64,000 nucleotides of DNA from Entoloma clypeatum (Eukaryota; Basidiomycota; Agaricomycetes; Agaricales; Entolomataceae), in assembly GCA_963565915.1 (NCBI GenBank), contig OY751485.1:1054001-1118000 (forward strand), in the 5' to 3' direction. The translations under genes and the position numbers were made by a program. The notes under the pieces are model-generated. The model saw only the letters and a program-made list of their open reading frames with translations, did no database searches and was not told where the DNA came from. Positions 36,752 through 58,320 of this stretch are shown in pieces (position 1 is the first letter of the stretch; each line of letters starts with the position of its first letter).

Positions 36752-36753
36752 GT

Positions 36754-36764
36754 ATATTCGAACT
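36754..36764 (+). promoter_or_regulatory. Gypsy-2 self-priming primer-binding site
   Basis: ATATTCGAACT two bases inside the LTR is the exact reverse complement of AGTTCGAATAT at 36346-36356, which lies 32 nt downstream of TATTTAA. This is a Tf1-like self-priming geometry. Confidence 0.72.
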
Positions 36765-36791
36765 CAAACCGTTTTTGGATTCCTGCTAGTC

Positions 36792-37719
36792 ATGGCACTC
36801 CGAAACACCAAGACAGCAAAAGCCGCAGAAGCTGGCACTTCTAGGCAACAGGTTCTACAAAATGTCGAACAACGTTTAACAGAACTATCCCCCGTAACTC
36901 CCACTACTCCGACACCTCCGGGTTTTCAGCCCATCACACCTCCGCATAATATTCCGATCCCCACTTCCCCCATAGAATCCGCACCCCCGTCTCCTCAGAA
37001 TATTTTCGGCCCACAAGCCCTTGCGGATGCTTTCCTCTTAATGACCAATGAACTCAAACGCAGCAAAGGTCACAAGCATCATAAAAAGGCTAAGGATCCG
37101 GACACCTTCGACGGTTCCGATCCCCGGAAACTGAACCAGTTCATCTCTGGACAATCTCAAAATGCGCGAAAATCAACATATTCTCAAGTATAATATCGAG
37201 TTCACACGCCTTGCTGCCAAAACGCACTGGGACAGCTCCGCCCTGCATCACCGGTACTACTCCGGGTTGGCAGAGCGGATTAAAGATGTCCTTGGGACTC
37301 AAGCAAAGCCAAGCACGTTACCAGCACTTAGGGAGCTAGCACAGACTATTGATGCTCGCCACTGGGAACGTCATCGTGAGAAGTCCCGCTCCGACAAGTC
37401 CGCATCCAAATCCGACAAATCCGAAGCTAAAACCCCCTCTGCAAACTCTGATAAAAACTCCAAAGCCAAACCACAGACACAGAACCAGAGCAAACAGTCG
37501 AAGCCTTCCTCCGCTCCCAAGTCCGACATCTCCGACAAACTCGGAAAAGACGGAAAGCTAACTCCGGAGGAACGCAAACGCCGTTTTGACAACAACCTCT
37601 GTATGTTTTGTGGCAAAGCTGGACATGTCACGAAAGATTGCCTGAAGTCTTCGTCCTCCGCCTCTAAGGCTAAGGCGCGCGCTGCCCAAGCCAAGACCAC
37701 GGACGAAACAAAAAATTAG
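36792..37719 (+). pseudogene. Gypsy-2a Gag, 230-bp deletion
   Basis: Starts MALRNTKTAKAAEAGTSRQQ like the intact 2b Gag, but at about 37146 the frame jumps from NQFI to sequence 230 bp further on (SLDNLK...), so it is frameshifted. The C-terminal zinc knuckle (CMFCGKAGHVTKDC) survives in the other frame. Confidence 0.9.
37710..37716 (+). promoter_or_regulatory. Gypsy-2a -1 frameshift heptamer at gag stop
   Basis: A_AAA_AAT directly precedes the gag TAG (37717-37719). A -1 slip here enters the pol frame (K K L A G S...), which is open without stops through the protease DSG motif. Confidence 0.6.
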
Positions 37720-40700
37720 CGGGCAGTCCACAGGACTCTGTACGGCCTGAGGACTGCGTTGAACCCATCCGTACTACCGCTCTACTCAACGCTTCCGCTC
37801 TTTCCGATCCCAATTCCCTCCGTGTCCGACTTACATCTCCGCTTATCTCCGATTCTTCTCCAATAGCCACCCTTGTGGACTCCGGCTCTACTCATTGTTT
37901 TATTGACTCCCGTTATGCTTCATCCTATAAACTCCCTTTCACCTCCATACCTCCGATCGAACTTAAATTATTTGACGGAACGTCCAACTCCGTCATTACT
38001 CAGGCGGTTGATCTCCCTGTATACTTTTCCTCCGGTGAATATATGGCCATTACAGCCTACGTGACTCCGCTCGATTCCTCCTGTTCTATGGTTCTTGGAT
38101 ACAACTGGCTCACCCGCTACAATCCTATGATTGACTGGGTATTGGGCAGTATTACTTTCCGTCCACAGCTCTTGAAGGAGTCTCCGACCTTGACGTCTTC
38201 TGCCAGGTCAGCTCCGCTACCTCCGCAGACCTCTCCCGATACTCCGACCTCCGACTCCGGCACACCCGCTGCTACTCCGGACGTTGTTCCGAATATTGCA
38301 TTGATAAATGCAGCCGCATTTGTGCGCGCCTGCAAACTTCCGGGTGCCCAATCCTTCCAAATTCACCTCTCCGACCACACGATCTCCGCCCAATCCGTTT
38401 CTATGTCCGAGGAACCTCCGGACCTCTCCCATATCCCAGAGGAATATCACGATTTTGCCGATGTTTTTAGCAAGACAAAAGCAGACACCCTCGCTCCGCA
38501 TCGTCCGTATGACCTCCGCATCGAGTTAGAAGATGGATCGACTCCCCCTATTGGCCCTATGTACTCCATTTCACAATCCGAACTATCTGCCCTGCGAAAC
38601 TTCATAGACAAACATTTGGCCATTGGCTTCATTCGCCCCTCTTGCTCTCCGCATGGCGCTCCGGTCCTCTTTGTCCGAAAGAAGGACGGTTCCCTCCGCC
38701 TGTGCGTCGACTATCGGGGCCTGAACAAAGTTACCAAGAAGGATCGATACCCTCTTCCGCTCATCTCCGACCTCCTTTCCACTGCCGGAAAAGCGCGTGT
38801 TTATACCACTCTCGATCTCCGGCATGCATATCATCTTGTCCGCATTGCCAACGGAGATGAATGGAAAACCGCTTTCCACACTCGTTACGGATCGTTTGAA
38901 TGGCTTGTTATGCCTTTTGGACTATCCAACGCCCCTGCTGCTTTTCAGCGATTTGTGAATGACATCTTCAGTGACCTCCTCGATGTTACAGTGGTGGTCT
39001 ACCTTGACGACATTCTCATTTACTCCGACGACCCCGCCAAGCACCCCGACGATGTCAAGGAAGTTCTCCGACGTCTCCGCAAGAACGGACTTTACGTCCG
39101 CTCCGACAAGTGTGAATTTTCTGTCGACACAGTCGAATATCTTGGTTTCATCCTTTCTCCCTCCGGTCTCCGCATGTCCGAAACCAAGGTGAAGACCATT
39201 CAAGAGTGGCCTGAACCTCGGAAAGTGAAGGACGTACAGTCTTTCCTAGGATTCGCAAATTTCTATCGACGTTTCATCCACGGTTATTCGGACATCGTTG
39301 TTCCGCTCACCCGACTCACCCGGAAGGGTACTCCGTTCCGTTTCTCCGACTCCGCACGGAGTGCGTTCAACGAGTTGAAGCTCGCGTTTACCAAAGCACC
39401 GGTCCTCACTCATTGGATTCCTGATCGACCTATTATCATCGAGACGGACGCCTCCGACTACGCACTTGGTGCTATTTTGTCCATCCGGACCTCCGACGAG
39501 GAGATACACCCAGTAGCGTTCCACTCCCGCACCTTCACCGCCCCGGAACTCAACTACGACACGCACGACAAGGAGTTACTTGCTATCCATGAAGCATTCA
39601 AGGTATGGCGACATTACCTTGAAGGCTCTGCTGCTCCGATCGATGTTGTCACGGACCACAAGAACCTGGAGTATTTCGCCACTACAAAGGTTCTCACCCG
39701 CCGACAGGCCCGGTGGTCCGAGTTCCTCTCTCAGTTCAATCTCTTGATTCGCTTCCGCCCCGGACGTCTCGGTACCAAGCCGGACTCTTTGACTAGACGA
39801 TGGGACGTCTATCCCAAAGAGGGGAATAGCGACTATGCATTGGTAAACCCAAGCAACTTCCGACCAGTCTTTTCCCAAGAACAGCTGTCCGCATCTCTCC
39901 GAGCTACGGAGTTGTTCACCCCTGTTCTCCGCGCCACAGTCATAATGGACATTGAACAGTTGCACTCCGACATCCTCCGTTCACTCCCATCCGACCCAAT
40001 CTATGCCGACCATCTCAAGGAGCCCAAACCGCACTGGTCCGTAGACTCCGACGGTTTCCTCCGTCATAGTGGTCGCATTTATGTCCCCAACTCCGATAAC
40101 CTCCGGCTCCGCACCCTCCGCAACAAGCACGACCATATTCTCTCCGGACACCCCAGACAGAACAAGACAGTTAGTCTCATTCAACGAGATTATACTTGGC
40201 CTGGTGTTCGAGACTTTGTCAAAAAGTACTGCAAATCCTGCACCACTTGCATGCGCTCTAAACCCCAACGCCACAAGCCCTATGGTATGCTGAAGCAACT
40301 CCCAGTTCCGAACCTTCCGTGGAACTCCATATCCATGGACTTCATCGAGACACTTCCGACCTCCGGCGGTTTTGACGCAATCCTTGTTATTGTTGACCGA
40401 ATGACAAAACAAAGCATTTTTGTTCCAACTACGATCCACTGCACCTCCGAAGATCTAGCCACCTTGTTCATCCTGCATGTGTTCTCCAAGCACGGAGTAC
40501 CGGAGCATGTCACCTCCGACCGAGGCCCGGAGTTCATCTCCCGCTTTTTCCGCTCCCTCAGAAAAGCCCTCAACATGACTCTGCACTTCACCTCTGGCTA
40601 CCATCCTGAAGGCGACGGTCAAACCGAACGTACCAACCAGACCTTGGAACAGTACCTCCGCATTTTCTGTAACTATCAACAGGACAACTGGTCCGAACTA

Positions 40701-41414
40701 CTTCCGCTTGCGGAGTTCGCGTACAACAATGCTCCGAGTGCTACGACCGGGATCTCGCCCTTCTTTGCCAATAAAGGTTATCATCCGAACCTCTCCGTCC
40801 ATCCGGAGCGCGACCTCGCATCCGCCCGTGCCCGACAATTCGTCGTAGACCTGGACGAGCTTCACCAAGAACTCAAATCTACAATCCTAGAAGCTCAACG
40901 ACGTTATCAAGGCCCCGCCGATCTCTGGCGTGCTCCGCCCCCTCCGCTCGAAGTAGGACAGCAAGCTTTTGTGAAGGCTAAGTTTTTCCGCACTACACGA
41001 CCCTCCAAAAAGCTGTCTGAAAAGTATCTTGGCCCCTTTGACATCCTTGCCAGGAATGGTACACACTCTTACACCCTCCGACTTCCGGACACCATATGCG
41101 GTGTTCACCCCGTTTTCCACATCTCCATGCTGGAGCCATCTGTTCCGAACGACATTCCGAACCGGACAGTAACTCCGCCTCCTCCGGTCGACGTTGAAGG
41201 AGAAGTGGAATACGAAATCGCCGAAATCCTTGACACCAAACTGGATCGTTGGCGTTCTTGCAAACTGCTCTACCTAGTCCGTTGGCTAGGCTATGAAGGA
41301 ACCGATGAGGAACAGTCCTGGCTACCCGCCACGGAACTCGAACACGCGACGGACTTAGTCGCGGACTTCCACTCCGCGTATCCGGAGAAACCGGGCCCCT
41401 TATCACACCTATAG
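37717..41414 (+). CDS. Gypsy-2a Pol
   Basis: The open frame entered by -1 frameshifting has no ATG before the protease VDSGSTHCFID (37875). RT: FRLS-type blocks, LDLRHAYHLVRI and YLDDILIYSDD (39001). RNase H: IETDASDYALGAIL, DKELLAI. Integrase: H2C2 finger (HDHILSGHPRQN ... CKSCTTC), core MDFIETLP, TSDRGPEF, HPEGDGQTERTN. C-terminal chromodomain (YLVRWLGYEGTDEEQSWLP). Intact. Differs from the 2b copy by at least one residue (QGPADL versus QGPTDL). Confidence 0.92.
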
Positions 41415-41484
41415 AAGCACGCAAGACTCTCATATTGCAAAAAAATAATAAAAAATAATGAAAAGAAACTAGAGGGGGGAGGGG

Positions 41485-42400
41485 CTACTGGGTTTTGGCC
41501 TTTTTGGCCGGCGGACCCTCATTCTCCGACCCTTCCTCCGACTCCTCCGTTTTTTCCCCTGTTTCTTCCTCCGCTTTCCTCGCCTGCTTTTTCTCCTCCT
41601 CCATTTTCTCCGCTTGCAGTTCCGCAAGCTCCCCCTCGTCCAACCCCTCGTCCTTCTCCTCGTCCTCTTCCTCGTCCTCTTCCGCACTTTTCGCCTCCCC
41701 TCCGTCATCCTCCGACTCCGGAGCCGCCGCCTCCAGCAAGAAGTTCCGGTAGGCGAGGTGGTTGTTTAAAATTTGCAGCTGCCGGAGCAGCGCCCAACCG
41801 ACCCTCGCCGACCGCTCCTCTCTCTCCTCCAGAGCCTCCCGGAGCTCCCGGAGCTCCTCCGCGACCCCTGCGCCGCAGCAGTTCTTTGCCCCGCTCGGGC
41901 CCGCGACCTCCGCGACGGCCTCCTCCGTCTTCCCCCGTTTCCGCTTCGCCCTCGTCTCGCCGGTTTTCAGGCAAACCCGTTTGCCGTCTTTACACCGCTG
42001 GCATGCGGTGCCTTTCCCCTGCCTAAGGAGACTGTCAGTAAGAAAAAGAAGATGAAAAAAAAGCGGGTACTCACAATGGCCACTTGCACTCCACCTTCGC
42101 CTCTGCACAGGCCTGACACGCCTCCCCCCGGACCTCCGATTCCTCCGCTCCGCTCTCCGCCCTCTGTTTCCCCGCCTTCTTCGCCCTCTTCCTCTCCGCC
42201 TCCACCTCCGCCTTCGCCTCCGCCTCTGCCTTCTTCTTCGCCTCTGCCTCCCTCGCCCTCCTCTCGGCCTCCGCCTTCTTCCTTGCCTCCGCCTCCTCCT
42301 TTTCCTTGCGTATCTGCGCCAGACGGCGCAGGAGCTCCTCTTCGGAGTCGTCTAGGTTGGCGCTGGATCGGGGGGGCTGTGTGCTCGAGCCTTGGGGCAT
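41485..42400 (-). CDS. Gypsy-2a antisense gene: coiled-coil Zn2Cys6 protein
   Basis: On the strand opposite to gag-pol, between pol and the 3' LTR. Exon 1 42400-42075, intron 42074-42023 (GTGAGT...CTGAC...TTAG), exon 2 42022-41485, giving 287 aa. Residues 18-80 are an Arg/Lys/Glu/Ala coiled coil. Residues 95-126 have C-x2-C-x6-C-x10-C-x2-C-x6-C, exactly the fungal Zn2Cys6 (GAL4-type) spacing, and the intron lies inside the linker. A second helical stretch follows (EELRELREALEEREER), then an acidic Glu/Asp tail and a basic AKKAKTQ end. The protein is identical to that of copy 2b as far as I can see. Zn2Cys6 proteins normally bind CGG triplets. Function inferred: nuclear DNA-binding regulator of the element or host. 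Confidence 0.8.
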
Positions 42401-42520
42401 GTTGGTGGTAACTGGAAGAAACCCTTGAAAGCCGCTCACCTCCGTTAAATAACCGAGACCACATGACCTTGTTTATTTTCTCGCGGTCTTCCATGGGTGT
42501 CAGACCTAAGAGGGGAATAC

Positions 42521-43242
42521 TGTTATATCCGTCTCCGAATCTCCGATCCACTCCGATCGTCCTCCGACTTTCCGGACTTTCCGGACATCCGTTACCTCCA
42601 CATCTCCGCACGTTGCCATCGTGCATTTCATATTCATAACTCCATGCCTTTATGCATTTCATATTCATATTCCCGTTTACTTATGCATCGCCTTTTCCGC
42701 ATGGTCCGTTGACCGACATCTCCGATGTTTGTTACAGTCGCTGGCAACTTACGCCACAACTCCGGACCTACTCCGACCATCTCCGTAAAGTAATCTCATT
42801 TAGATATTTAAGCTTGTACCATACCTGTAGTTCCTCAGTTCGAATATCAACAAAGTTCACTCCTCTACTCCCCGTTCATGCCAGAGATCCTCGCTGTGGT
42901 ACAATACGCCGACGACATCCTCATCTACTGCTCTTCCTCCATCGTTACCCTTCGACGAGCTCAGTACTGTGTCCGAGTCACAACTCCGACGTCGTCCGAC
43001 CATTTCCACGTCAACGTGTCTCTCACCGAGATCTTTCCGAGGACCTCCGCATCTCCGACCTCTCCTCCGACCTCCTGAAATTGGGACACCTTATCCAACA
43101 AACGGCGGCGCAACACATACGTTGAAGCCACGTCCCTCCCCTTCGTCGTTCCTCTGCATTCCCGGAGTTCTGCTCCGGCCTCAGTCCTTCGTCCGACCTC
43201 CGACGGACTCCGACGAAGCTCCGACTTTTCACCTACTTAACA
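42521..43242 (+). repeat. 3' LTR of Gypsy-2a
   Basis: 722 bp, preceded by the purine tract AAGAGGGGAATAC. Differs from the 5' LTR at scattered bases (for example near 42599 and 43156). Confidence 0.9.
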
Positions 43243-43247
43243 CTCTC

Positions 43248-43416
43248 CAACTAAGTGCCTTGCAAGGACTTAGCTCTGCTTGACCCGAACCGAGTTGTCC
43301 TTCTGAGGAACTCGCTGATTGACCAAGTCGACCTATTGAGGGACTTGTTGTGGAACCAGTTCAAACCCACGTGATCCGATCTGTTGAACTTGTTGTTGTA
43401 GGCTATCGCCGTAACA
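43248..43416 (+). repeat. Gypsy-3 5' LTR, second part
   Basis: Continues the LTR after the Gypsy-2a insertion and ends GCCGTAACA. Matches 49673-49841 of the 3' LTR. Confidence 0.88.
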
Positions 43417-43419
43417 AAA

Positions 43420-43430
43420 GGTCAAGCTGA
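43420..43430 (+). promoter_or_regulatory. Gypsy-3 self-priming primer-binding site
   Basis: GGTCAAGCTGA is the exact reverse complement of TCAGCTTGACC in the LTR (49620-49630), 33 nt downstream of TATATAA (49587-49593). The 5' LTR copy has one mismatch (TTAGCTTGACC). Confidence 0.72.
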
Positions 43431-44611
43431 TCAACGTCGTCAACCCACCGCGGTTTTAGACGCAAAGATTCTTCCCCGACGATCCACCTTTGGAGTCCCA
43501 TCTGACTCAGAAGACGAACAGGAGTTCGTTGACGCACCTGTCACACCACGACCACCGCCGACACCGTACAGAAGAGTAACCTCCTCTTTCGTACCAGTCA
43601 ACCCCACATCACCCTCTTACCTCTCTCTGAGACGAAACCCACCGCCGCCAGCTGCTGCTGCTGCTGCACCCAGACCGACCCCAGACAGCCCAAAGACTCT
43701 ACTTGTAGAAATGACTTGTCAAGTAAGGACCTCAGAAAAAGAAATCAAGATCAGCCCGCCGGCGATCTTCAATGGAGATAGAAGGAAACTATCTGAATTT
43801 TTGTTCGACGCGAACCTGTACCTGGAGATGAATGATGACATTTACAACTCCGACAAGAAGAAAATCCTGTTCACTGTCTCATACATGAAAGGAGGAACTG
43901 CCGGACCCTGGAAGGAGTCCTGGCACAGAGATATCAGCACCACCGGAGTATCCGTGTACCCAAAATACGCGGAGTTCATCGAGAAACTGAGGAAGTCGTT
44001 TTCCCCAGCCGACAAAGAAGGAGACACGTTAACCATGATGAAAACACAAAGAATGGAAGGCATGACTGCCGACGAATATGTTGAAAAGTTCAAGTTGTGG
44101 GCTGCAGAGTCTGATCAAAGACGATTGATCTCTCAGAGACTACTTCATGGAGGTGTTGCCACACGCGCTCCGAGACAAGATCTTGGGCCTTGATAAGGTC
44201 CCAGGAACAATGGAAGAATGGTACACCATGGCGTCCAGACTGGACAACCAGTGGAGAAGGGCCAAGGCAGTGGCTCAAAGACTCAGACCCGATGGGGGAA
44301 AAAAGAAGTTCAAAGTGAACTATAACCCCGCACCCCGAAATGCGCATTTCGCCCCAGACCCTAATGCCATGGACATTGACTGGCTAACTGCTGAAGAGAG
44401 AGACAACCACTTCAAGAAAGGGTTGTGCTTCGTCTGCCACCAGGCAGGACATCGTGCTGATGCACACAAAGGAGGAAAAACCCCGGTTGCGAACAATACG
44501 TTCAAAAAAGCATCCGACGCATATGCCCACATCCGAGGCATTTTCAAGGACTTACCAAATGAGGAACAAGACGCCTTGATCTCCGAAATGGAGAAACAGG
44601 GTTTTCAATAA
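43431..44611 (+). pseudogene. Gypsy-3 Gag
   Basis: The frame is open from just after the LTR without an ATG (Pro/Ala-rich leader) to MTCQVRTSEKEIKISPP (43711), then the gag core (NLYLEMNDDIYNSDKKKILFT, KLRKSFSPADKEGDTL). A one-base shift near 44130-44145 breaks it. The other frame continues EVLPHALRDKILGLD, a finger CFVCHQAGHRADAH (C-x2-C-x4-H then His rather than Cys), and stops TAA at 44609. Confidence 0.82.
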
Positions 44612-44625
44612 AGTGGCCTGTACCG

Positions 44626-47600
44626 ATGTCAGCCCCCGCTCAGTTTTCAATCTCCCTATCACCTGTAATTGTAGCCGACATGAATGACAAATCTTTTTCG
44701 ATCCCCATTTCAATGTCAGGAGAAGGAGAAAGCATTGATGAAAGACTAAAGATAAATGCCCTGATAGACTCAGGAGCAGGAGGAACCTTCTTGGATCAGA
44801 AGTTCGCCACAGCTAACCGAATGGAGCTTATCCCGTTATTAAAGCCCATTCGTGTGTTCAATGTGGACGGAACAAAGAACAAAGAAGGAACGATCACCCA
44901 TTGTACACGGAAGAAAATCTGGATTGATGACAAAGAACTCGACGTCAGATTCTTGGTAACTGGACTTGGAAAGGAAACCGCCATTTTGGGGTTACCCTGG
45001 TTAAAACAATACAACCCGAAGATTGATTGGGAAAGAGGAACCTTGGATATTGAAAGTATCAGGTTCAAGAAGACCCTGGCAGGGGTCATGAGGAAGAAAT
45101 TTGATGAGCTATTAGCATCAAAAGACAAGAAACCCATTGCAATTGCAGCATGGATGAAAGAAAAACCCAAACAAAGGATCTTCGCAACAGTAGAAGAAAT
45201 TGATGATGAAGAGACCCTTAAACCGAAAAAGGAGGCTCTACCGGCAAATGGACCTATCTTGAAAAGAATAGATAAAGAATCAGACGATGACCTAGACCTA
45301 TTCAGGACATATGTCACAACGGACGAACCTATTGAGGATATTTGGATCCAAGCCAAAACCTTGATCTCCCAGAAACTGACACACAACACGGACACCGCGG
45401 ACAAACCAAAGAAAGAACTACCAGAACGATATGATCAGTATCAGAAGGTGTTTGAGAAAGCGGCATCTGAGAGATTACCGGAACACAAAACATGGGACCA
45501 CGCAATTGACTTAAAACCGGACTTCACCCCGAAAGACTGCAAGGTTTATCCTTTGTCACCGGAAGAACAAACTAAATTGGACGAATTCCTTGATGAGAAC
45601 CTTTGAAAGGGGTACATCAGACCCTCGAAATCACCAATGGCATCACCCTTTTTCTTCATGGCTAAAAAGGACTTGGATAAGCTCAGACCCTGTCAGGACT
45701 ATCGGCGATTGAACGAGGGAACAGTGAAAAACGCATACCCGTTGCCCCTGGTCGGAGATTTATTGGACAAACTGAAAGGAGCAAAGGTCTTTACTAAACT
45801 GGACATGCGTTGGGGATACAACAACATACGGATCAAACCTGGCGATGAATGGAAGGCTGCATTCAAAACCAATCGAGGGTTGTACGAACCCTTGGTTGCC
45901 TTCTTTGGGTTAGCAGGCATGCCACCCACGTTTCAGGCAATGATGAACGAAATCTTCAAAGAAGAACTTGAGGAAGGATGGTTGCTGATTTATTTGGACG
46001 ACATCTTCATCTTCTCAGTCAATGACGAAATCGACACCGAATGAACGCTCCGCGTACTAAGAAAAATGATAGAGAATGACCTCTATCTCAACCTGGAAAA
46101 ATGCGAATTTGGAGTCAGGCAGTGCAAATACCTCGGACTGATTATCAAAGAAAACGAAATTGCAATGGACCCCGTTAAGTTATCGGGGATAGCAAAATGG
46201 CCAGAACCCACGACTGTCAAGCAAGTCAGATCTTTTCTTGGATTTGGAAACTTCTACCGAAGGTTTATTGGACACTACTCAGACACTGCCAAACCCCTGA
46301 ATGATCTAACAAAGGAGGATCAGGAGTGGGAATGGAGCGAAGACTGCCAGACGGCATTTGACACATTAAAGGACAAATTCGCGGAATCACCAGTATTGTT
46401 GATGCCGAACACTGACAAACCGTTCATCATAGAATCTGATGCATCAAAATGGGCGACAGGAGCAGTACTGCGCCAACAAGATGTGAATGGAGACTGGCAC
46501 CCCTGCGGATATATATCGCACTCGTTCTCTGTGCCAGAGCGGAACTATGAGATCTATGATCGGGAACTCTTGGGAATTATCCGATCACTGGAAACCTGGA
46601 GGCACTACCTCCTTGGGTCACCGTTTCCAACAGTGGTTCTGTCAGATCACAAGAACTTGACGTATTACCGGGAACCCCAGAAATTGAACAGACGACAAGC
46701 ACGGTGGAGATTGTATCTCTCTGAGTTTGAACTCAAACTAGTGCATACCCCAGGATCGAAGATGATCCAATCTGACGCCTTGTCAAGGCGACCGGACCAT
46801 ATACCCGAAGAGGACACTGATAACGAAGACATTATTGTCTTGCCAAATGACATTTTTGTCAAAACAGTGGACCTTGAGCTACAAGGAGATATTCTAAAAG
46901 CAACCAAAAACGATGAGCTCTTCTCGAAAGCCATCACTGCCCTAAAAGAATCGGAAACACCACCGATTAAATCCCATTTATCAGAATGGAGAACAGAAGA
47001 CGGAATATTATTCTTCCGTGACAGATGTTACGTACCACCAGATGAAACTCTGTGCCGGGAAATAACGAAACGATACCATGATTCCCTACCAAGGGGACAT
47101 CTGGGACATCTAAAAACCCTGGAACTGGTCAGAAGAAACTATTGGTGGCCAGGAATGTACGTGTTTGTCAAAAATTATGTTGGAGGATGTGCAACCTGCC
47201 AACAAATGAAAGTCAACACACACCCTACGAACCCCGGATTGATGCCGATTAAAGCCCAGAAAGATGCGAGACCCTTCTCACAGACCACCATCGATTTTAT
47301 TACGGATCTACCCGAGAGCAACGGGTTTGACAGTATCATGGTCGTAGTAGACCATGGTTCTACGAAGGGGGTAATTTCCATCCCTTGCACAAAAACCACC
47401 GACACGACCCTCACTGCCAAGCTTTATTTCGACCATGTGTACCGAAGATTCGGACTCCCAGACTCTATTCTGTCTGACAGAGGGCCACAGTTCGCCTCTC
47501 AGGTCTTCAGAGAACTAGGGCGACTCCTAGGGATCAAACTAATGATGAGCACGGCTTATCACCCTCAGACTGATGGAGAAACGGAAAGAGCAAATCAGGA

Positions 47601-48321
47601 ACTTGAGATCTATTTCCGAATGTTCCGTTCGAACAATCCTGAAACATGGCACGATCATAATTCAACAATGGAGTTCTGTCACAATCAAAGAACTCATTCC
47701 ACGATGAAACGATCCCCGTTCTATCTGATGATGGGACACGAACCAAGAGACATACCATTGGCATTTGACAAGACAAATGTGCCAAGCATAGAAGAACGGC
47801 TCAAAGAGCTGAAACAAGCAAGAGATGAAGTGCTGGCAGCGCACGAACTAGCCCGTCAGATGATGGCTGAAAGGTCAACACGAGGTTTCACTCCGTTTGG
47901 AAAAGGAGAACAGGTATGGCTAGAAGGGAAGAACCTCCGAATCGGATACCCTTCCAGAAAACTGGCACCCAAAAGAGAAGGACCCTTCACCATTTCCGAG
48001 GTGCTTGGGCCCATGACGTACAAATTGAAGCTTCCAGAACAATGGAAGATCCACCCCGTTTTCCACGCCTCCTTGTTAACACCTTATTGGGAAAATGACA
48101 CACATGGACCAAACTTCCACAACCCACCTCCTGATCTGATCGAAGGAGAACACAAGTACGAAGTAGAAGCAATCCTCACCCACAAGCGACAGGGCAGAGG
48201 GTACAAATATTTGGTCAAGTGGATGGGATACCCATCGAGCGATAACACGTGGGAACCCGAATCCAACTTAAAAAGAGCCCAAGAAACGCTGGGGTACTAC
48301 AAACAGACCCACCACCTTTGA
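44626..48321 (+). pseudogene. Gypsy-3 Pol with two TGA stops
   Basis: Protease (NALIDSGAGGTFLD), RT ([28 protein letters not shown]), RNase H (ESDASKWATGAVL), integrase (H2C2 HLGHLKTLELVRRNYWWP ... CATCQQ; core TIDFITDLP, LSDRGPQF, YHPQTDGETERAN) and chromodomain (YLVKWMGYPSSDNTWEPE). TGA at 45604 (NL-stop-KGYIRP) and 46042 (TE-stop-TLRVL) replace CGA Arg codons; otherwise open to 48321. Confidence 0.9.
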
Positions 48322-48346
48322 ACCCAACAACCCACATCCTCTCATC

Positions 48347-49243
48347 ATGACCACCGCTTTCGATACCGCCACCAAGGAACTCCACCGACACCGCCTCTTT
48401 AGGCTCCTGACCAAACCCGAGCACAATGACAGAGTGCTGCGGCACATTGACGATGAGACCGACCAATTCTTGGTCAACACATTGTTTGGGCTAATCACCC
48501 TCCACCAATTCCATTACGATACCACCGCCAACATCACCCGACTCATCGAGGGGCACATCGACACGCTCCTAGACAGAGGTGTCTACCAACAATTTGCAAG
48601 GCTGTTCCATAACCGCACGAACACCCCCGACGTCACGCTCCTAGACCCATCTGCAGAAAACCCTATCCTGACCACTCCCCTCCCCAATCTTGCCACCACC
48701 CCTGAACCAACCCCTATCCCTGATCCGGTTCCCCTCGTCATCAGGAACCCCGACACTCCAAGTACCACTTCTCCCGAATCCACGTCGCCCTTGACCAGCG
48801 ACCGAAGCCTTTCCGACGTCAAGACCGACATCAAGGGAAAGAAGAAATCCTATGGAGTTGTTAAACGCTCCAGAAGAAAAACCACACGCACCATCATGTC
48901 TATTCCATTAGGGCATGGATCATCATCCCAGACTCCCATCGATCTCACCAACGAACCCAATTACCTTGACTATGAGGTTGACACGCATGGACACGCTCAC
49001 TCCCCGAGCGGACCTTGGCGCCGTCCTGCTGGATGGCCACATATTGACAAAGGGCGCAAATGTGGTCTTTGTGCTAGGGCAGATGGACACATTGAGTGTC
49101 AATGCGGATACTATGTATGTCAGAAGTGTTGGAAGAAGGCACCCGGACACTACGATTACGAGTGCTTGGGCCCGGGTTATGCAGCGCTGGAAGATGACCA
49201 GTACGAGTTTGACAACGATGCCATACACAACATGGCAACTTGA
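48347..49243 (+). CDS. Gypsy-3 extra ORF downstream of pol: Cys/His-finger nuclear-type protein
   Basis: 298 codons starting 25 nt after the pol stop, same strand, ending just before the purine tract and 3' LTR. The N-terminal 90 residues are helical and His-rich. A Pro/Thr/Ser-rich linker (100-155) follows, then a basic NLS-like segment (GKKKSYGVVKRSRRK, 164-178) and TPIDLT (196-201), which resembles a SUMO-interaction motif. Cys residues 239, 242, 251, 253, 258, 261 and 273 with nearby His form a RING/ZZ-like zinc-finger candidate. The frame is intact although gag and pol of this copy are broken, and its end recurs in the second copy at 62916-63043. No family recognised. Confidence 0.7.
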   Translation: MTTAFDTATKELHRHRLFRLLTKPEHNDRVLRHIDDETDQFLVNTLFGLITLHQFHYDTTANITRLIEGHIDTLLDRGVYQQFARLFHNRTNTPDVTLLDPSAENPILTTPLPNLATTPEPTPIPDPVPLVIRNPDTPSTTSPESTSPLTSDRSLSDVKTDIKGKKKSYGVVKRSRRKTTRTIMSIPLGHGSSSQTPIDLTNEPNYLDYEVDTHGHAHSPSGPWRRPAGWPHIDKGRKCGLCARADGHIECQCGYYVCQKCWKKAPGHYDYECLGPGYAALEDDQYEFDNDAIHNMAT

Positions 49244-49284
49244 AAACATTGAAGCCGGTGACTTCAAGCATAGAAGGGGGGTAA

Positions 49285-49841
49285 TGTTACACTTTTTCAC
49301 CCTTTTCCTACGCACCTTCACACGACCCTTCAACCCTTGATTCCCCATCACACCCCGTTTCACTTAACTCCAATGACCCTGGGACATGTGTCCCCTCTAT
49401 CAGCGCTATGACTCATACTGACTCGGACTATTCCCCTTTTAGATACATTTTCACTCGTTATCTCTGACTGACGGCCTCACGGCCTTATCTCTGACTCTTA
49501 TGCCACAACCCCTTGAAACATCTATCTAACCAATGGCTTATTTAGCTCCTGCGCAGCACCTACTTATTTATAGCTATAGGATAACGTATATAAGACCTGT
49601 AACCTTAGAGTAGAGGTCCTCAGCTTGACCTAGGCAAACAACGCTTACTTGTCTACCACTTCGAACACTCTCTAACTAAGTGCCTTGCGAGGACTTAGCT
49701 CTGCTTGACCCGAACCGAGTCGTCCTTCTGAGGAACTCGCTGATTGACCAAGTCGACCTATTGAGGGACTTGTTGTGGAACCAGTTCGAACCCACGTGAT
49801 CCGATCTGTTGAACTTGTTGTTGTAGGCTACCGCCGTAACA
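49285..49841 (+). repeat. 3' LTR of Gypsy-3
   Basis: 557 bp TGTTACAC...GCCGTAACA, preceded by AGAAGGGGGGTAA. TATATAA at 49587 and the R-start 11-mer at 49620. Confidence 0.9.
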
Positions 49842-50327
49842 ATACCTTGCAAGGGAGATCTGAAGAGAAAGTTCTAAGGATTCCCCTGCAAGCTAGCTAG
49901 ATAAATAGTAAAATGAGATATGAAATAAGAGATAAAACGAGACACATGAATGATGAGCAATGATCGGGAGTAGGGATGGGGGATGAATGGAAACAAGATG
50001 AATGATAGTACCTGCGATCTGATGTGTGGAGTAGCGGATGGGCGCGGAGTCATCGGATGCGGAGAGACGGATAAGATGTCGGAGGCAGCAGATACAATCG
50101 GAGGACATCGGAGATGGTGGAATAGAAAGGAAAGGAAGAAAGGAAAGGAAAAGTGAAAAGTGAAAGTGGTTGCCCTTACAGCAGGCTTCCAGTTTGTTGT
50201 TAATTAAAATGCATCCACACTCTTGCCATGCTGTCTCTTGCTGACCGTGTTTTCTCCAGAATATTTCAGAGAAGAATAAACAAGGTGGGGGCATTACGGT
50301 ACTTAACCTGTTAACCAAATCTAACTC
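49842..50327. other. Spacer between Gypsy-3 and the unknown exon
   Basis: About 490 bp. A minus-strand frame of 176 codons covers part of it but looks random (Ser/His/Phe-rich). The right end has a plausible 3' splice site (CTAACTCAG near 50327). Confidence 0.35.
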
Positions 50328-50877: not shown

Positions 50878-51599
50878 TGTTAAGTAGGTGAAAAGTCGGA
50901 GCTTCGTCGGAGTCCGTTGGAGGTCGGACGAAGGACTGAGGCCGGAGCGGAACTCCGGGAATGCGGAGGAACGACGAAGAGGAGGGACGTGGCTTCAACG
51001 TATGTGTTGCGCCGCCGTTTGTTGGATAAGGTGTCCCAATTTCAGGAGGTCGGAGGAGAGGTCGGAGATGCGGAGGTCCTCGGAAAGATCTCAGTGAGAG
51101 ACACGTTGACGTGGAAATGGTCGGACAACGTCGGAGTTGTGACTCGGACACAGTACTGAGCTCGTCGAAGGGTAACGATGGAGGAAGAGCAGTAGATGAG
51201 GATGTCGTCGGCGTATTGTACCACAGCGAGGATCTCTGGCATGAACGGGGAGTAGAGGAGTGAACTTTGTTGATATTCGAACTGAGGAACTACAGGTATG
51301 GTACAAGCTTAAATATCTAAATGAGATTACTTTACGGAGATGGTCGGAGTAGGTCCGGAGTTGTGGCGTAAGTTGCCAGCGACTGTAACGAACATCGGAG
51401 ATGTCGGTCAACGGACCATGCGGAAAAGGCGATGCATAAGTAAACGGGAATATGAATATGAAATGCATAAAGGCATGGAGTTATGAATATGAAATGCACG
51501 ATGGCAACGTGCGGAGATGTGGAGGTAACGGATGTCCGGAAAGTCCGGAAAGTCGGAGGACGATCGGAGTGGATCGGAGATTCGGAGACGGATATAACA
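50878..51599 (-). repeat. 3' LTR of Gypsy-2b
   Basis: 722 bp, reverse complement of the Gypsy-2a LTR type. Confidence 0.9.
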
Positions 51600-51719
51600 G
51601 TATTCCCCTCTTAGGTCTGACACCCATGGAAGACCGCGAGAAAATAAACAAGGTCATGTGGTCTCGGTTATTTAACGGAGGTGAGCGGCTTTCAAGGGTT
51701 TCTTCCAGTTACCACCAAC

Positions 51720-52635
51720 ATGCCCCAAGGCTCGAGCACACAGCCCCCCCGATCCAGCGCCAACCTAGACGACTCCGAAGAGGAGCTCCTGCGCCGTCTG
51801 GCGCAGATACGCAAGGAAAAGGAGGAGGCGGAGGCAAGGAAGAAGGCGGAGGCCGAGAGGAGGGCGAGGGAGGCAGAGGCGAAGAAGAAGGCAGAGGCGG
51901 AGGCGAAGGCGGAGGTGGAGGCGGAGAGGAAGAGGGCGAAGAAGGCGGGGAAACAGAGGGCGGAGAGCGGAGCGGAGGAATCGGAGGTCCGGGGGGAGGC
52001 GTGTCAGGCCTGTGCAGAGGCGAAGGTGGAGTGCAAGTGGCCATTGTGAGTACCCGCTTTTTTTTCATCTTCTTTTTCTTACTGACAGTCTCCTTAGGCA
52101 GGGGAAAGGCACCGCATGCCAGCGGTGTAAAGACGGCAAACGGGTTTGCCTGAAAACCGGCGAGACGAGGGCGAAGCGGAAACGGGGGAAGACGGAGGAG
52201 GCCGTCGCGGAGGTCGCGGGCCCGAGCGGGGCAAAGAACTGCTGCGGCGCAGGGGTCGCGGAGGAGCTCCGGGAGCTCCGGGAGGCTCTGGAGGAGAGAG
52301 AGGAGCGGTCGGCGAGGGTCGGTTGGGCGCTGCTCCGGCAGCTGCAAATTTTAAACAACCACCTCGCCTACCGGAACTTCTTGCTGGAGGCGGCGGCTCC
52401 GGAGTCGGAGGATGACGGAGGGGAGGCGAAAAGTGCGGAAGAGGACGAGGAAGAGGACGAGGAGAAGGACGAGGGGTTGGACGAGGGGGAGCTTGCGGAA
52501 CTGCAAGCGGAGAAAATGGAGGAGGAGAAAAAGCAGGCGAGGAAAGCGGAGGAAGAAACAGGGGAAAAAACGGAGGAGTCGGAGGAAGGGTCGGAGAATG
52601 AGGGTCCGCCGGCCAAAAAGGCCAAAACCCAGTAG
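51720..52635 (+). CDS. Gypsy-2b antisense gene: coiled-coil Zn2Cys6 protein
   Basis: Exon 1 51720-52045 (MPQGSSTQPPRSSANLDD...), 52-bp intron 52046-52097 with GTGAGT donor, CTGAC branch (52082-52086) and TTAG acceptor, exon 2 52098-52635; 287 aa, frame preserved across the junction. Zn2Cys6 Cys at 95, 98, 105, 116, 119, 126. Strong coiled coil (18-80) before the finger, a helical leucine-rich segment and long acidic tail after it. Transcribed towards pol from the 3' LTR side; an AAATAAA lies upstream (about 51645). An upstream in-frame GTG exists at 51681, but ATG at 51720 is the first ATG. The overlapping 233-codon frame in this interval lacks the Cys motif. Confidence 0.82.
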
Positions 52636-52705
52636 CCCCTCCCCCCTCTAGTTTCTTTTCATTATTTTTTATTATTTTTTTGCAATATGAGAGTCTTGCG
52701 TGCTT

Positions 52706-55700
52706 CTATAGGTGTGATAAGGGGCCCGGTTTCTCCGGATACGCGGAGTGGAAGTCCGCGACTAAGTCCGTCGCGTGTTCGAGTTCCGTGGCGGGTAGCC
52801 AGGACTGTTCCTCATCGGTTCCTTCATAGCCTAGCCAACGGACTAGGTAGAGCAGTTTGCAAGAACGCCAACGATCCAGTTTGGTGTCAAGGATTTCGGC
52901 GATTTCGTATTCCACTTCTCCTTCAACGTCGACCGGAGGAGGCGGAGTTACTGTCCGGTTCGGAATGTCGTTCGGAACAGATGGCTCCAGCATGGAGATG
53001 TGGAAAACGGGGTGAACACCGCATATGGTGTCCGGAAGTCGGAGGGTGTAAGAGTGTGTACCATTCCTGGCAAGGATGTCAAAGGGGCCAAGATACTTTT
53101 CAGACAGCTTTTTGGAGGGTCGTGTAGTGCGGAAAAACTTAGCCTTCACAAAAGCTTGCTGTCCTACTTCGAGCGGAGGGGGCGGAGCACGCCAGAGATC
53201 GGTGGGGCCTTGATAACGTCGTTGAGCTTCTAGGATTGTAGATTTGAGTTCTTGGTGAAGCTCGTCCAGGTCTACGACGAATTGTCGGGCACGGGCGGAT
53301 GCGAGGTCGCGCTCCGGATGGACGGAGAGGTTCGGATGATAACCTTTATTGGCAAAGAAGGGCGAGATCCCGGTCGTAGCACTCGGAGCATTGTTGTACG
53401 CGAACTCCGCAAGCGGAAGTAGTTCGGACCAGTTGTCCTGTTGATAGTTACAGAAAATGCGGAGGTACTGTTCCAAGGTCTGGTTGGTACGTTCGGTTTG
53501 ACCGTCGCCTTCAGGATGGTAGCCAGAGGTGAAGTGCAGAGTCATGTTGAGGGCTTTTCTGAGGGAGCGGAAAAAGCGGGAGATGAACTCCGGGCCTCGG
53601 TCGGAGGTGACATGCTCCGGTACTCCGTGCTTGGAGAACACATGCAGGATGAACAAGGTGGCTAGATCTTCGGAGGTGCAGTGGATCGTAGTTGGAACAA
53701 AAATGCTTTGTTTTGTCATTCGGTCAACAATAACAAGGATTGCGTCAAAACCGCCGGAGGTCGGAAGTGTCTCGATGAAGTCCATGGATATGGAGTTCCA
53801 CGGAAGGTTCGGAACTGGGAGTTGCTTCAGCATACCATAGGGCTTGTGGCGTTGGGGTTTAGAGCGCATGCAAGTGGTGCAGGATTTGCAGTACTTTTTG
53901 ACAAAGTCTCGAACACCAGGCCAAGTATAATCTCGTTGAATGAGACTAACTGTCTTGTTCTGTCTGGGGTGTCCGGAGAGAATATGGTCGTGCTTGTTGC
54001 GGAGGGTGCGGAGCCGGAGGTTATCGGAGTTGGGGACATAAATGCGACCACTATGACGGAGGAAACCGTCGGAGTCTACGGACCAGTGCGGTTTGGGCTC
54101 CTTGAGATGGTCGGCATAGATTGGGTCGGATGGGAGTGAACGGAGGATGTCGGAGTGCAACTGTTCAATGTCCATTATGACTGTGGCGCGGAGAACAGGG
54201 GTGAACAACTCCGTAGCTCGGAGAGATGCGGACAGCTGTTCTTGGGAAAAGACTGGTCGGAAGTTGCTTGGGTTTACCAATGCATAGTCGCTATTCCCCT
54301 CTTTGGGATAGACGTCCCATCGTCTAGTCAAAGAGTCCGGCTTGGTACCGAGACGTCCGGGGCGGAAGCGAATCAAGAGATTGAACTGAGAGAGGAACTC
54401 GGACCACCGGGCCTGTCGGCGGGTGAGAACCTTTGTAGTGGCGAAATACTCCAGGTTCTTGTGGTCCGTGACAACATCGATCGGAGCAGCAGAGCCTTCA
54501 AGGTAATGTCGCCATACCTTGAATGCTTCATGGATAGCAAGTAACTCCTTGTCGTGCGTGTCGTAGTTGAGTTCCGGGGCGGTGAAGGTGCGGGAGTGGA
54601 ACGCTACTGGGTGTATCTCCTCGTCGGAGGTCCGGATGGACAAAATAGCACCAAGTGCGTAGTCGGAGGCGTCCGTCTCGATGATAATAGGTCGATCAGG
54701 AATCCAATGAGTGAGGACCGGTGCTTTGGTAAACGCGAGCTTCAACTCGTTGAACGCACTCCGTGCGGAGTCGGAGAAACGGAACGGAGTACCCTTCCGG
54801 GTGAGTCGGGTGAGCGGAACAACGATGTCCGAATAACCGTGGATGAAACGTCGATAGAAATTTGCGAATCCTAGGAAAGACTGTACGTCCTTCACTTTCC
54901 GAGGTTCAGGCCACTCTTGAATGGTCTTCACCTTGGTTTCGGACATGCGGAGACCGGAGGGAGAAAGGATGAAACCAAGATATTCGACTGTGTCGACAGA
55001 AAATTCACACTTGTCGGAGCGGACGTAAAGTCCGTTCTTGCGGAGACGTCGGAGAACTTCCTTGACATCGTCGGGGTGCTTGGCGGGGTCGTCGGAGTAA
55101 ATGAGAATGTCGTCAAGGTAGACCACCACTGTAACATCGAGGAGGTCACTGAAGATGTCATTCACAAATCGCTGAAAAGCAGCAGGGGCGTTGGATAGTC
55201 CAAAAGGCATAACAAGCCATTCAAACGATCCGTAACGAGTGTGGAAAGCGGTTTTCCATTCATCTCCGTTGGCAATGCGGACAAGATGATATGCATGCCG
55301 GAGATCGAGAGTGGTATAAACACGCGCTTTTCCGGCAGTGGAAAGGAGGTCGGAGATGAGCGGAAGAGGGTATCGATCCTTCTTGGTAACTTTGTTCAGG
55401 CCCCGATAGTCGACGCACAGGCGGAGGGAACCGTCCTTCTTTCGGACAAAGAGGACCGGAGCGCCATGCGGAGAGCAAGAGGGGCGAATGAAGCCAATGG
55501 CCAAATGTTTGTCTATGAAGTTTCGCAGGGCAGATAGTTCGGATTGTGAAATGGAGTACATAGGGCCAATAGGGGGAGTCGATCCATCTTCTAACTCGAT
55601 GCGGAGGTCATACGGACGATGCGGAGCGAGGGTGTCTGCTTTTGTCTTGCTAAAAACATCGGCAAAATCGTGATATTCCTCTGGGATATGGGAGAGGTCC

Positions 55701-56403
55701 GGAGGTTCCTCGGACATAGAAACGGATTGGGCGGAGATCGTGTGGTCGGAGAGGTGAATTTGGAAGGATTGGGCACCCGGAAGTTTGCAGGCGCGCACAA
55801 ATGCGGCTGCATTTATCAATGCAATATTCGGAACAACGTCCGGAGTAGCAGCGGGTGTGCCGGAGTCGGAGGTCGGAGTATCGGGAGAGGTCTGCGGAGG
55901 TAGCGGAGCTGACCTGGCAGAAGACGTCAAGGTCGGAGACTCCTTCAAGAGCTGTGGACGGAAAGTAATACTGCCCAATACCCAGTCAATCATAGGATTG
56001 TAGCGGGTGAGCCAGTTGTATCCAAGAACCATAGAACAGGAGGAATCGAGCGGAGTCACGTAGGCTGTAATGGCCATATATTCACCGGAGGAAAAGTATA
56101 CAGGGAGATCAACCGCCTGAGTAATGACGGAGTTGGACGTTCCGTCAAATAATTTAAGTTCGATCGGAGGTATGGAGGTGAAAGGGAGTTTATAGGATGA
56201 AGCATAACGGGAGTCAATAAAACAATGAGTAGAGCCGGAGTCCACAAGGGCGGCTATCGGAGAAGAATCGGAGATAAGCGGAGATGTAAGTCGGACACGG
56301 AGGGAATTGGGATCGGAAAGAGCGGAAGCGTTGAGTAGAGCGGTAGTACGGATGGGTTCAACGCAGTCCTCAGGCCGTACAGAGTCCTGTGGACTGCCCG
56401 CTA
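52706..56403 (-). CDS. Gypsy-2b Pol
   Basis: Same architecture as the 2a Pol: protease VDSGSTHCF near 56245, RT YLDDILIYS, RNase H, H2C2/DDE integrase, chromodomain. Open from the gag stop region to 52706, no ATG before protease, so expression needs the -1 slip at 56404-56410. Confidence 0.93.
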
Positions 56404-57558
56404 ATTTTTTGTTTCGTCCGTGGTCTTGGCTTGGGCAGCGCGCGCCTTAGCCTTAGAGGCGGAGGACGAAGACTTCAGGCAATCTTTCGCGATGTGTCCA
56501 GCTTTGCCACAAAACATACAGAGGTTGTTGTCAAAACGGCGTTTGCGTTCCTCCGGAGTTAGCTTTCCGTCTTTTCCGAGTTTGTCGGAGATGTCGGACT
56601 TGGGAGTGGAGGAAGGCTTCGACTGTTTGCCCTGGTTCTGTGTCTGTGGTTTGGCTTTGGAGTTTTTATCAGAGTTTGCGGAGGGGGTTTTAGCTTCGGA
56701 TTTGTCGGATTTGGATGCGGACTTGTCGGAGCGGGACTTCTCGCGATGACGTTCCCAGTGGCGAGCATCAATAGTCTGTGCTAGCTCCCTAAGTGCTGGT
56801 AACGTGCTTGGCTTTGCTTGAGTCCCAAGGACATCTTTAATCCGCTCTGCCAACCCGGAGTAGTACCGGTGATGCAGGGCGGAGCTGTCCCAGTGCGTTT
56901 TGGCAGCAAGGCGTGTGAACTCGATATTATACTTGAGAATATGTTGATTTTCGCGCATTTTGAGATTGTCCAGAGAGTCGGCAGCATCCGCAACGGGGTC
57001 AATGACCCCGAATTCCGTGCGGAGTGTGCGGAGGAATGCGGACCAATCTTCGTACCAGTCCGGGGGGTTATCCGGGTCCGGTTCGATGATGAAATGCTCG
57101 AAATAATCGAGAGCTGTGCCTCGGAGGAAAGAGATGGCGAGAGTGATTTTGGCAGAGTCATCGTCATACTCGGAGTTGTCGCGGAAGAACAATGTGCATT
57201 GGAGGATGAACTGGTTCAGTTTCCGGGGATCGGAACCGTCGAAGGTGTCCGGATCCTTAGCCTTTTTATGATGCTTGTGACCTTTGCTGCGTTTGAGTTC
57301 ATTGGTCATTAAGAGGAAAGCATCCGCAAGGGCTTGTGGGCCGAAAATATTCTGAGGAGACGGGGGTGCAGATTCTATGGGGGAAGTGGGGATCGGAATA
57401 TTATGCGGAGGTGTGATGGGCTGAAAACCCGGAGGTGTCGGAGTAGTGGGAGTTACGGGGGATAGTTCTGTTAAACGTTGTTCGACATTTTGTAGAACCT
57501 GTTGCCTAGAAGTGCCAGCTTCTGCGGCTTTTGCTGTCTTGGTGTTTCGGAGTGCCAT
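56401..57558 (-). CDS. Gypsy-2b Gag
   Basis: 385 aa, MALRNTKTAK start. Pro/Thr-rich N-terminus (25-75), gag core (PDTFDGSDPRKLNQF, LAISFLRGTALDYFEHF, MRENQHILKYNIEFTRLA), Ser/Lys-rich linker, one CCHC knuckle (CMFCGKAGHIAKDC). It forms the particle and binds RNA. The stop codon is directly preceded by the slippery heptamer. Confidence 0.93.
   Translation of the reverse strand: MALRNTKTAKAAEAGTSRQQVLQNVEQRLTELSPVTPTTPTPPGFQPITPPHNIPIPTSPIESAPPSPQNIFGPQALADAFLLMTNELKRSKGHKHHKKAKDPDTFDGSDPRKLNQFILQCTLFFRDNSEYDDDSAKITLAISFLRGTALDYFEHFIIEPDPDNPPDWYEDWSAFLRTLRTEFGVIDPVADAADSLDNLKMRENQHILKYNIEFTRLAAKTHWDSSALHHRYYSGLAERIKDVLGTQAKPSTLPALRELAQTIDARHWERHREKSRSDKSASKSDKSEAKTPSANSDKNSKAKPQTQNQGKQSKPSSTPKSDISDKLGKDGKLTPEERKRRFDNNLCMFCGKAGHIAKDCLKSSSSASKAKARAAQAKTTDETKN
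56404..56410 (-). promoter_or_regulatory. Gypsy-2b -1 frameshift heptamer
   Basis: Minus-strand A_AAA_AAT immediately before the gag TAG (56403-56401), identical to Gypsy-2a. Confidence 0.6.
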
Positions 57559-57598
57559 GACTAGCAGGAATCCAAAAACGGTTTGAGTTCGAATATAC

Positions 57599-58320
57599 TG
57601 TTAAGTAGGTGAAAAGTTGGAGCTTTGTCGGAGTCCGTTGGAGGTCGGACGAAGGACTGAGGCCGGAGCGGAACTCCGGGAATGCGGAGGAACAACGAAG
57701 AGGAGGGACGTGGCTTCAACGTATGTGTTGCGCCGCCGTTTGTTGGATAAGGTGTCCCAATTTCAGGAGGTCGGAGGAGAGGTCGGAGATGCGGAGGTCC
57801 TCGGAAAGATCTCGGTGAGAGACACGTTGACGTGGAAATGGTCGGACGACGTCGGAGTTGTGACTCGGACACAGTACTGAGCTCGTCGAAGGGTAACGAT
57901 GGAGGAAGAGCAGTAGATGAGGATGTCGTCGGCGTATTGTACCACAGCGAGGATCTCTGGCATGAACGGGGAGTAGAGGAGTGAACTTTGTTGATATTCG
58001 AACTGAGGAACTACAGGTATGGTACAAGCTTAAATATCTAAATGAGATTACTTTACGGAGATGGTCGGAGTAGGTCCGGAGTTGTGGCGTAAGTTGCCAG
58101 CGACTGTAACGAACATCGGAGATGTCGGTCAACGGACCATGCGGAAAAGGCGATGCATAAGTAAACGGGAATATGAATATGAAATGCATAAAGGCATGGA
58201 GTTATGAATATGAAATGCACGATGGCAACGTGCGGAGATGTGGAGGTAACGGATGTCCGGAAAGTCCGGAAAGTCGGAGGACGATCGGAGTGGATCGGAG
58301 ATTCGGAGACGGATATAACA
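57599..58320 (-). repeat. 5' LTR of Gypsy-2b
   Basis: 722 bp; followed on the minus strand by the same GTATATTCGAACT primer region (57598-57586). Confidence 0.9.

Follow-up and report, generated by a model that had tools for sequence, protein, structure and literature searches.

The window analysed here is a 64,000-nucleotide (nt) stretch of the Entoloma clypeatum genome (contig OY751485.1, positions 1,054,001 to 1,118,000) that carries two copies of one Ty3/Gypsy retrotransposon in opposite orientation, copy 1 at 36030-43242 and copy 2 at 50878-58320. In both copies, a two-exon gene for a protein of 287 amino acids (aa) is sited between pol and the 3′ long terminal repeat (LTR), antisense to gag-pol. 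This intron-bearing gene is encoded by the element, is under purifying selection, and is found in most listed copies as well as in two sister families. In copy 2, the gene occupies the forward strand. Exon 1 (51720-52045, ATG at 51720) encodes a putatively helical region rich in Lys, Glu, and Ala and the first three of six cysteines, followed by a 52-nt phase-2 intron (52046-52097, GTGAGT...CTGAC...TTAG). Exon 2 (52098-52635, stop included) encodes the last three cysteines, a basic stretch, an acidic tail, and the C-terminal PPAKKAKTQ. The six-cysteine cluster CQACAEAKVECKWPLQGKGTACQRCKDGKRVC (forward strand, 52002-52149; residues 95-126) has the spacing C-x2-C-x6-C-x10-C-x2-C-x6-C, with the intron falling between its third and fourth cysteines. 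In copy 1, the gene is on the reverse strand (exon 1, 42075-42400; intron, 42023-42074; exon 2, 41485-42022), and its DNA, intron included, is identical to that of copy 2 letter for letter. These coordinates bear out the initial annotation, which was made from the letters of the window and described an antisense two-exon gene of 287 aa with a 52-nt intron, this cysteine spacing, an intact frame, and identical exons in both copies.

The element itself is a chromovirus. Copy 2 lies on the reverse strand, with its 5′ LTR at 57599-58320, a gag frame of 399 aa from stop to stop at 56404-57600, pol at 52706-56446, and its 3′ LTR at 50878-51599. The 1246-aa Pol contains protease, reverse transcriptase (RT), RNase H, integrase, and a chromodomain. 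Copy 1 lies on the forward strand, with LTRs at 36030-36751 and 42521-43242 and a pol of the same 1246 aa at 37674-41414; its gag is broken into frames of 146 and 194 aa, as the initial annotation had noted for one copy. Pfam scores for Pol are 134 bits for RVT_1, 36 bits for rve, and a marginal 25.3 bits (cut-off 25.1) for the chromodomain PF00385, whose position at the C-terminus after the integrase is that of chromoviruses. The LTR pairs of copies 1 and 2 differ at just 8 and 5 of 722 positions, respectively, so both insertions look recent. Since the edge of the 3′ LTR lies 120 nt from the ATG of the antisense gene, an antisense transcript would need to start within the LTR or in the short leader.

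The genome (60 Mb, 20 contigs) yields 18 Zn_clus matches in six frames, as a fungus would show. A search for the antisense gene gave 151 matches, which merge into 118 loci of the window family, here called family A, and 62 of these copies were read (L009-L070). Both splice sites are present in 61 of the 62, with the acceptor lost in L054. Copies were counted as open if they had an ATG, an exon 1 length of 2 mod 3, and at least 255 aa. By this measure, 53 of the 61 copies with both splice sites encode an open protein, L058 and L065 among them having a frameshifted tail, and the six-cysteine pattern is retained in 52 of the 53, L070 having lost the first Cys. Exon 1 lengths range between 256 and 344 nt and are 2 mod 3 in 59 of the 61 copies, the two exceptions being broken copies; this count over all copies is the fair figure because the definition of open already includes the frame condition. 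Intron lengths span 46-64 nt, with the residues mod 3 split 41/12/8 among the 61 copies. Length changes thus preserve the reading frame in exon 1 but not in the intron, which is the expectation for a spliced gene, and this pattern marks the coding strand of the antisense gene. In the copies L009-L058, matches to pol (50/50) and to the LTR (49/50) lie on the expected sides.

Selection was assessed on a codon alignment of 51 copies, using 783 pairs with a synonymous divergence (dS) of at least 0.08. The ratio of nonsynonymous to synonymous divergence (dN/dS) is 0.28 in the antisense frame and 1.13-1.33 in frames +1, +2, -0, and -2, with the mostly open sense frame -2 at 1.30. The mirror frame -1, whose third codon positions are opposed to those of the gene, has a dN/dS of 0.37, yet each of the 53 open copies has a stop in that frame in exon 1 and in exon 2. 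A chance open reading frame (ORF) or a gene on the sense strand is rejected given the value of 0.28, the mirror-frame stops, and the value of 1.30 in frame -2. The dN/dS check across copies, which the initial annotation had proposed, gives a value that is not near 1 and indicates purifying selection. In the 867 of 1275 pairs with a third-position divergence above 0.04, a choice that inflates the third-position value, the first, second, and third codon positions diverge by 0.061, 0.063, and 0.128, compared with 0.140 in the intron and 0.114 in the 60 nt past the stop.

These results bear on two alternatives to a functional protein. Under the first, the antisense RNA would be the agent, through copy control based on double-stranded RNA, and the ORF would be incidental. 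Passages of a review do report non-coding antisense transcripts in other retroelements (PMC7264820), but an incidental ORF would hardly show a dN/dS of 0.28 with frame-keeping indels in exon 1 and none of this constraint in the intron, and we judge this explanation highly improbable. Equally improbable is a recently captured host gene or a chance ORF in skewed DNA that travels as a functionless passenger. The low-complexity region rich in Lys, Glu, and Ala, the acidic tail, and the long alternative frames in the same DNA are what such a passenger might look like, but purifying selection on the antisense frame and its absence from the mostly open frame -2 argue against it.

Family A copies also vary in other respects. 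The acidic tail has alternative forms and is shorter in L009, L055-L057, L059-L064, L066-L068, and L070. Shorter tails sit on elements with several kinds of exon 1, which suggests recombination inside exon 2. Separately, the accessory proteins of family A often differ by changes of Arg to Trp, Gln, Cys, or His, and the stops within the listed pol matches are TGA in all cases but one (TAG). Together, the TGA stops and Arg changes point to C-to-T decay at CpG, as DNA methylation would produce.

The gene is not confined to family A. A search with pol found at least 150 C-terminal ends. Family A accounts for 99 of those listed, and the other 51 belong to two sister families, B and C, in which the Pol C-terminus is 71-74% identical to that of family A and the RT about 82-83%. 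One copy of each sister family was read (L071 for B, L072 for C), and each contains a two-exon gene antisense between pol and the LTR, encoding 296 aa with a 49-nt intron in B and 322 aa with a 50-nt intron in C. As in the window gene, both introns are in phase 2 and lie at the same site between Cys3 and Cys4. Three alternative introns in the C gene would give 1-3 extra residues, but they do not have a GTGAGT-type donor and the Cys motif is lost. The B and C proteins are each only 29% identical to the window protein, and all six cysteines align across the three families. The spacer between the two halves of the cluster is x10 in A, x8 in B, and x11 in C, while the flanking x2-x6 spacing is otherwise constant, and the C-termini are alike and basic (PPAKKAKTQ in A, PSNKKQRTK in B, and VSNKKQRK in C). 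That three families with such strongly diverged proteins agree in the location, orientation, and intron phase of the gene is a further point against a passenger gene, as is the retention of the cysteines against an agent made of RNA alone.

Other copies of the sister genes are known as search matches (208 in B and 131 in C). Pol ends were paired with genes within 1500 nt, using the listed gene matches (118 A loci, 150 of the 208 in B, and 63 of the 131 in C). Among the 150 listed pol ends, the gene lies downstream in antisense orientation in 129 and in sense orientation in none; the other 21 have no listed gene match within 1500 nt, which does not imply that the gene is absent there. An antisense ORF between pol and the 3′ LTR, the layout known as aORF-3R, is thus found in most listed copies. 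The gene is probably older than the split of families A, B, and C and appears to evolve much faster than pol. In some B elements, such as C13:2757315-2758274 and C10:1911020-1911994, exon 1 matches the query at 95-96% but exon 2 at only 69%, a pattern that could arise from exchange or faster evolution of the C-terminal half of the accessory protein.

The full window protein has a single match in a protein database search, P0001 (ENA), and the cysteine region of P0001 in turn finds eight proteins including itself (ENA, JGI) with a similar layout at the protein level. Nine aligned sequences drawn from A, B, C, and the group of P0001 all have the six cysteines. Within that group, P0001 has the x10 spacer of A, and P0008 is without the last Cys. 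Searched against the Entoloma genome, P0001 gives 25 matches, each of them at a gene locus of family A. With the cysteine region of the window protein as query, no protein was found at E ≤ 0.001, P0001 had no match in viral and genome contig collections, and a degenerate DNA pattern for the first cysteines had no match in the Entoloma genome. P0007, from a 943-nt JGI contig, reads straight across the intron site, which suggests that the intron is absent in its lineage.

Six-cysteine clusters of such spacing are known DNA binders, and fungal Zn2Cys6 proteins favour sites with a CGG core. The initial annotation assigned the protein to this class and named a search with the Zn_clus profile as a check, with the lack of a match as one of the outcomes that would refute its reading. 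The six-cysteine spacing of PF00172, C-x2-C-x6-C-x(8-11)-C-x2-C-x6-C, is indeed found in A, B, C, and P0001, but no profile match rises above the cut-off; the cluster is thus Zn2Cys6-like by its spacing only. A Pfam scan of the full A protein gives no Zn_clus match at E ≤ 1, and its sole listed match is the DNMT3 ADD/GATA-like finger ADD_DNMT3 (PF17980), at an E of 0.023 and 15.1-17.8 bits against a cut-off of 26, a domain that is unlisted for B, C, and P0001. Domains of 38-41 aa score 12.3 (A), 12.6 (B), 15.1 (C), and 15.3 bits (P0001) with Zn_clus (PF00172; cut-off 21), and domains trimmed to the cysteines score 10.0, 12.2, 9.7, and 16.3 bits. Of eight shuffles with the cysteines fixed, three reach 14.3-15.6 bits and five have no Zn_clus match. 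A plain Zn_clus factor is therefore not accepted, since the natural-order scores lie under the cut-off and are little or no higher than those of some shuffles.

In the partial matches, the first half of the cluster tends to match the second half of the profile (A, B, and P0001), while in C the second half matches the first. Half-swapped constructs in which the linker was used twice score 18.6, 20.5, 20.6, and 23.4 bits, higher than any of the eight shuffles. A clean permutation of the halves gives 11.3, 13.5, 15.1, and 16.0 bits for A, B, C, and P0001, differing from the natural order by 1.3, 1.3, 5.4, and -0.3 bits, and two canonical Zn_clus domains with their halves swapped still score 25.5-26.2 bits. 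A model built from four Zn_clus exons of the Entoloma genome favours the swapped order for B, C, and P0001 and not for A. A half-swapped Zn2Cys6 domain is thus no more than a hint.

Structure prediction covered the relative P0001, whose AlphaFold2 model has a mean predicted local distance difference test (pLDDT) of 66.9 and a predicted template modelling score (pTM) of 0.25. A long helix is placed with confidence at 32-100, and a second long helix lies at 172-232; short helices lie at both CxxC sites, and the cysteine region is of low confidence (pLDDT about 60). A profile search of solved structures returned the LEU3 zinc-cluster chain as its third and last match, which is not significant (E 0.97), and the cysteine domain alone had no match. 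Pfam scans found neither a TRP28 domain in these proteins nor a basic leucine zipper (bZIP) domain in the window protein. The helices, the cluster, the acidic tail, and the basic end would fit a nuclear regulator.

A candidate target is the pentamer TCCGA, whose enrichment was first spotted by eye and tested later. The LTR stretches compared were 722 nt in A, 560 nt in B, and 700 nt in C, those of B and C being measured from the LTR start with their far ends unset. They contain 15, 20, and 10 TCCGA sites, respectively, against about 1-2 expected and with no TCGGA on the same strand (the 15 of A are those of the 5′ LTR of copy 1), and none of 200 shuffles reaches these counts. Neighbouring sites are 7-11 nt apart in 19 of 42 cases. 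In family A, gag-pol has 47 TCCGA and 3 TCGGA, or 62 and 3 with the 5′ LTR included (36030-41414 in copy 1), and the 986-nt antisense gene region is more weakly enriched (4 and 1). The density is 10-21 per kilobase in gag-pol and the LTR, compared with 0.3-2.0 per kilobase in six other parts of the window, where TCCGA/TCGGA counts are 5/11 in a copia element, 10/6 and 12/6 in two other gypsy elements, and 7/9, 2/7, and 3/2 in three further stretches. Codon usage does not account for the excess in family A pol, which has 38 sites, whereas 500 synonymous shuffles average 21.1 ± 3.0 and never go above 31. A short gag piece has 4 sites, a count reached by 17 of 500 such shuffles, and no excess of this kind is seen in four ORFs from other elements. 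With the B and C stretches cut at 480 and 580 nt for site retention, 8 of 9 alignable TCCGA sites are kept between the A and B LTRs, against 23% of other 5-mers (p = 8e-5).

Taken together, these observations suggest that the gene is an accessory gene of this Ty3/Gypsy chromovirus lineage whose product, expressed in antisense, would act as a regulator on the element's own LTRs through TCCGA, a tentative proposal to which we give slightly less than an even chance. An antisense promoter in or beside the 3′ LTR would produce a transcript that is spliced. The predicted protein, with its long N-terminal helix, Zn2Cys6-like cluster, basic stretch, second helix, acidic tail, and basic C-terminus, would enter the nucleus, bind zinc, and, acting in trans, recognise the closely packed TCCGA (= TCGGA) sites that share one orientation in the LTRs of its own element. 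LTR transcription would probably be raised or tuned as a result. The initial annotation had proposed a retrotransposon-encoded antisense regulator; the element-encoded, selected antisense gene is confirmed, and the regulatory role is plausible.

Several observations weigh against this proposal, which is drawn from sequence. The Zn_clus scores lie below the cut-off, and ADD_DNMT3 outscores Zn_clus for the window protein. TCCGA is enriched in gag-pol as well as in the LTR, its bias to one orientation exceeds what a double-stranded site would need, and it was noticed by eye before testing. Retention of the motif is not significant between A and C (3/9, p = 0.11) or between B and C (8/19, p = 0.06). 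In 47 copies of the family A LTR, CpGs within TCCGA (15 sites) show no better retention than the remaining CpGs (46 sites; p = 0.50), which either counts against selection on the motif or means that most copies decay neutrally. Finally, the 400 nt before the ATG, comprising the leader and the LTR end, diverge by only 0.053, below the intron, so non-coding parts evolve unequally and provide no uniform neutral reference.

The one-strand bias through coding sequence, unexplained by simple DNA binding, is the reason to consider a factor that acts on RNA, binding UCCGA in the genomic RNA and aiding its export, packaging, or reverse transcription in the manner of Rev or a nucleocapsid protein. The excess of TCCGA over TCGGA in the 5′ LTR, gag-pol, and, to a lesser degree, the antisense gene would follow from such a role, as would the excess in pol beyond synonymous codon choice. 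The known six-cysteine clusters of this spacing bind DNA, however, and the acidic tail and basic C-terminus would better suit a nuclear regulator; an RNA-level role is considered improbable. An anti-silencing factor like VANC of the Arabidopsis VANDAL transposons, coating its own element via arrayed motifs and removing repressive marks instead of serving as a classical activator, is a somewhat better prospect, though still unlikely. A single motif in one orientation, far denser in gag-pol and the LTR than elsewhere, is the dense, same-orientation, family-specific array of VANC-like systems, and the predominance of TGA among the pol stops is what decay of methylated CpG would leave. VANC motifs, on the other hand, are chiefly non-coding in the passages describing them (PMC5735166), and here gag-pol is dense too. 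A broader possibility, judged less likely than not, is a self-recognition system in which a divergent, perhaps half-swapped Zn2Cys6-like protein would co-evolve with a one-orientation TCCGA code spread over the LTRs and coding region, and the element would thereby find and control or un-silence its own copies only.

The window also contains a further Gypsy element between the two copies (43239-49842), with an extra 323-aa ORF (48272-49243) after pol in sense orientation. Its product has a cysteine-rich region, GRKCGLCARADGHIECQCGYYVCQKC..., and weak Pfam matches only.

A single genome thus offers three diverged families, more than 100 family A gene loci, a conserved cluster, and a candidate target motif, and the question of what antisense accessory genes do can be reduced here to a binding and reporter experiment. 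Among known antisense genes of LTR elements, HBZ of human T-cell leukaemia virus type 1 (HTLV-1) is spliced and encodes a bZIP protein. HBZ is nuclear and is expressed from an antisense promoter in the 3′ LTR, according to passages of two papers (PMC11963269, PMC7264820). The gene described here shares with HBZ an antisense position in an LTR element and a nuclear, regulatory product, the latter established for HBZ and putative here; HBZ is a retroviral bZIP protein, and no homology is claimed. The resemblance to VANC lies in an element-encoded protein paired with a short motif that is specific to the family and densely arrayed in one orientation. VANDAL elements are DNA transposons, however, and the passages on VANC report proven binding to dense arrays in mainly non-coding DNA (PMC5735166), whereas binding is putative here. 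In plants, ORFs of the aORF-3R layout include gene23 of maize Grande, that of RIRE2, and that of Retand, which has a TRP28 domain, and gene23 has its own promoter, a nuclear product, and a suggested regulatory role (passages of PMC7264820, PMC11963269). Retand belongs to a non-chromovirus lineage, and TRP28 is not found in the window-family proteins; the same passages mention neither a six-cysteine cluster nor a conserved intron in the plant ORFs, unlike the fungal gene, and they describe the function of antisense accessory genes of LTR elements as unsettled.

A fungal counterpart by description is Boty of Botrytis cinerea. The gene that Boty carries in antisense, brtn (Zhao et al., 2011, as cited in passages of PMC7264820, PMC8365987, and PMC5987419), is placed by a review among ORFs that lie antisense past pol and ahead of the 3′ LTR (PMC7264820), and the gag-pol of Boty includes a CHROMO domain according to a passage of another paper (PMC4227169). 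The view of the initial annotation that no fungal LTR element with this layout had been described was thus too strong (PMC7264820). In the open-access papers searched, no spliced antisense gene with a six-cysteine cluster was found in a fungal element. Like Boty, the element described here is a fungal LTR element with a chromodomain in gag-pol and an extra antisense gene, a likeness drawn from the descriptions of Boty in those passages. Antisense accessory genes are already known from plant elements and from fungal Boty, and the gene described here, with its intron and six-cysteine cluster, is probably a variant of that kind.
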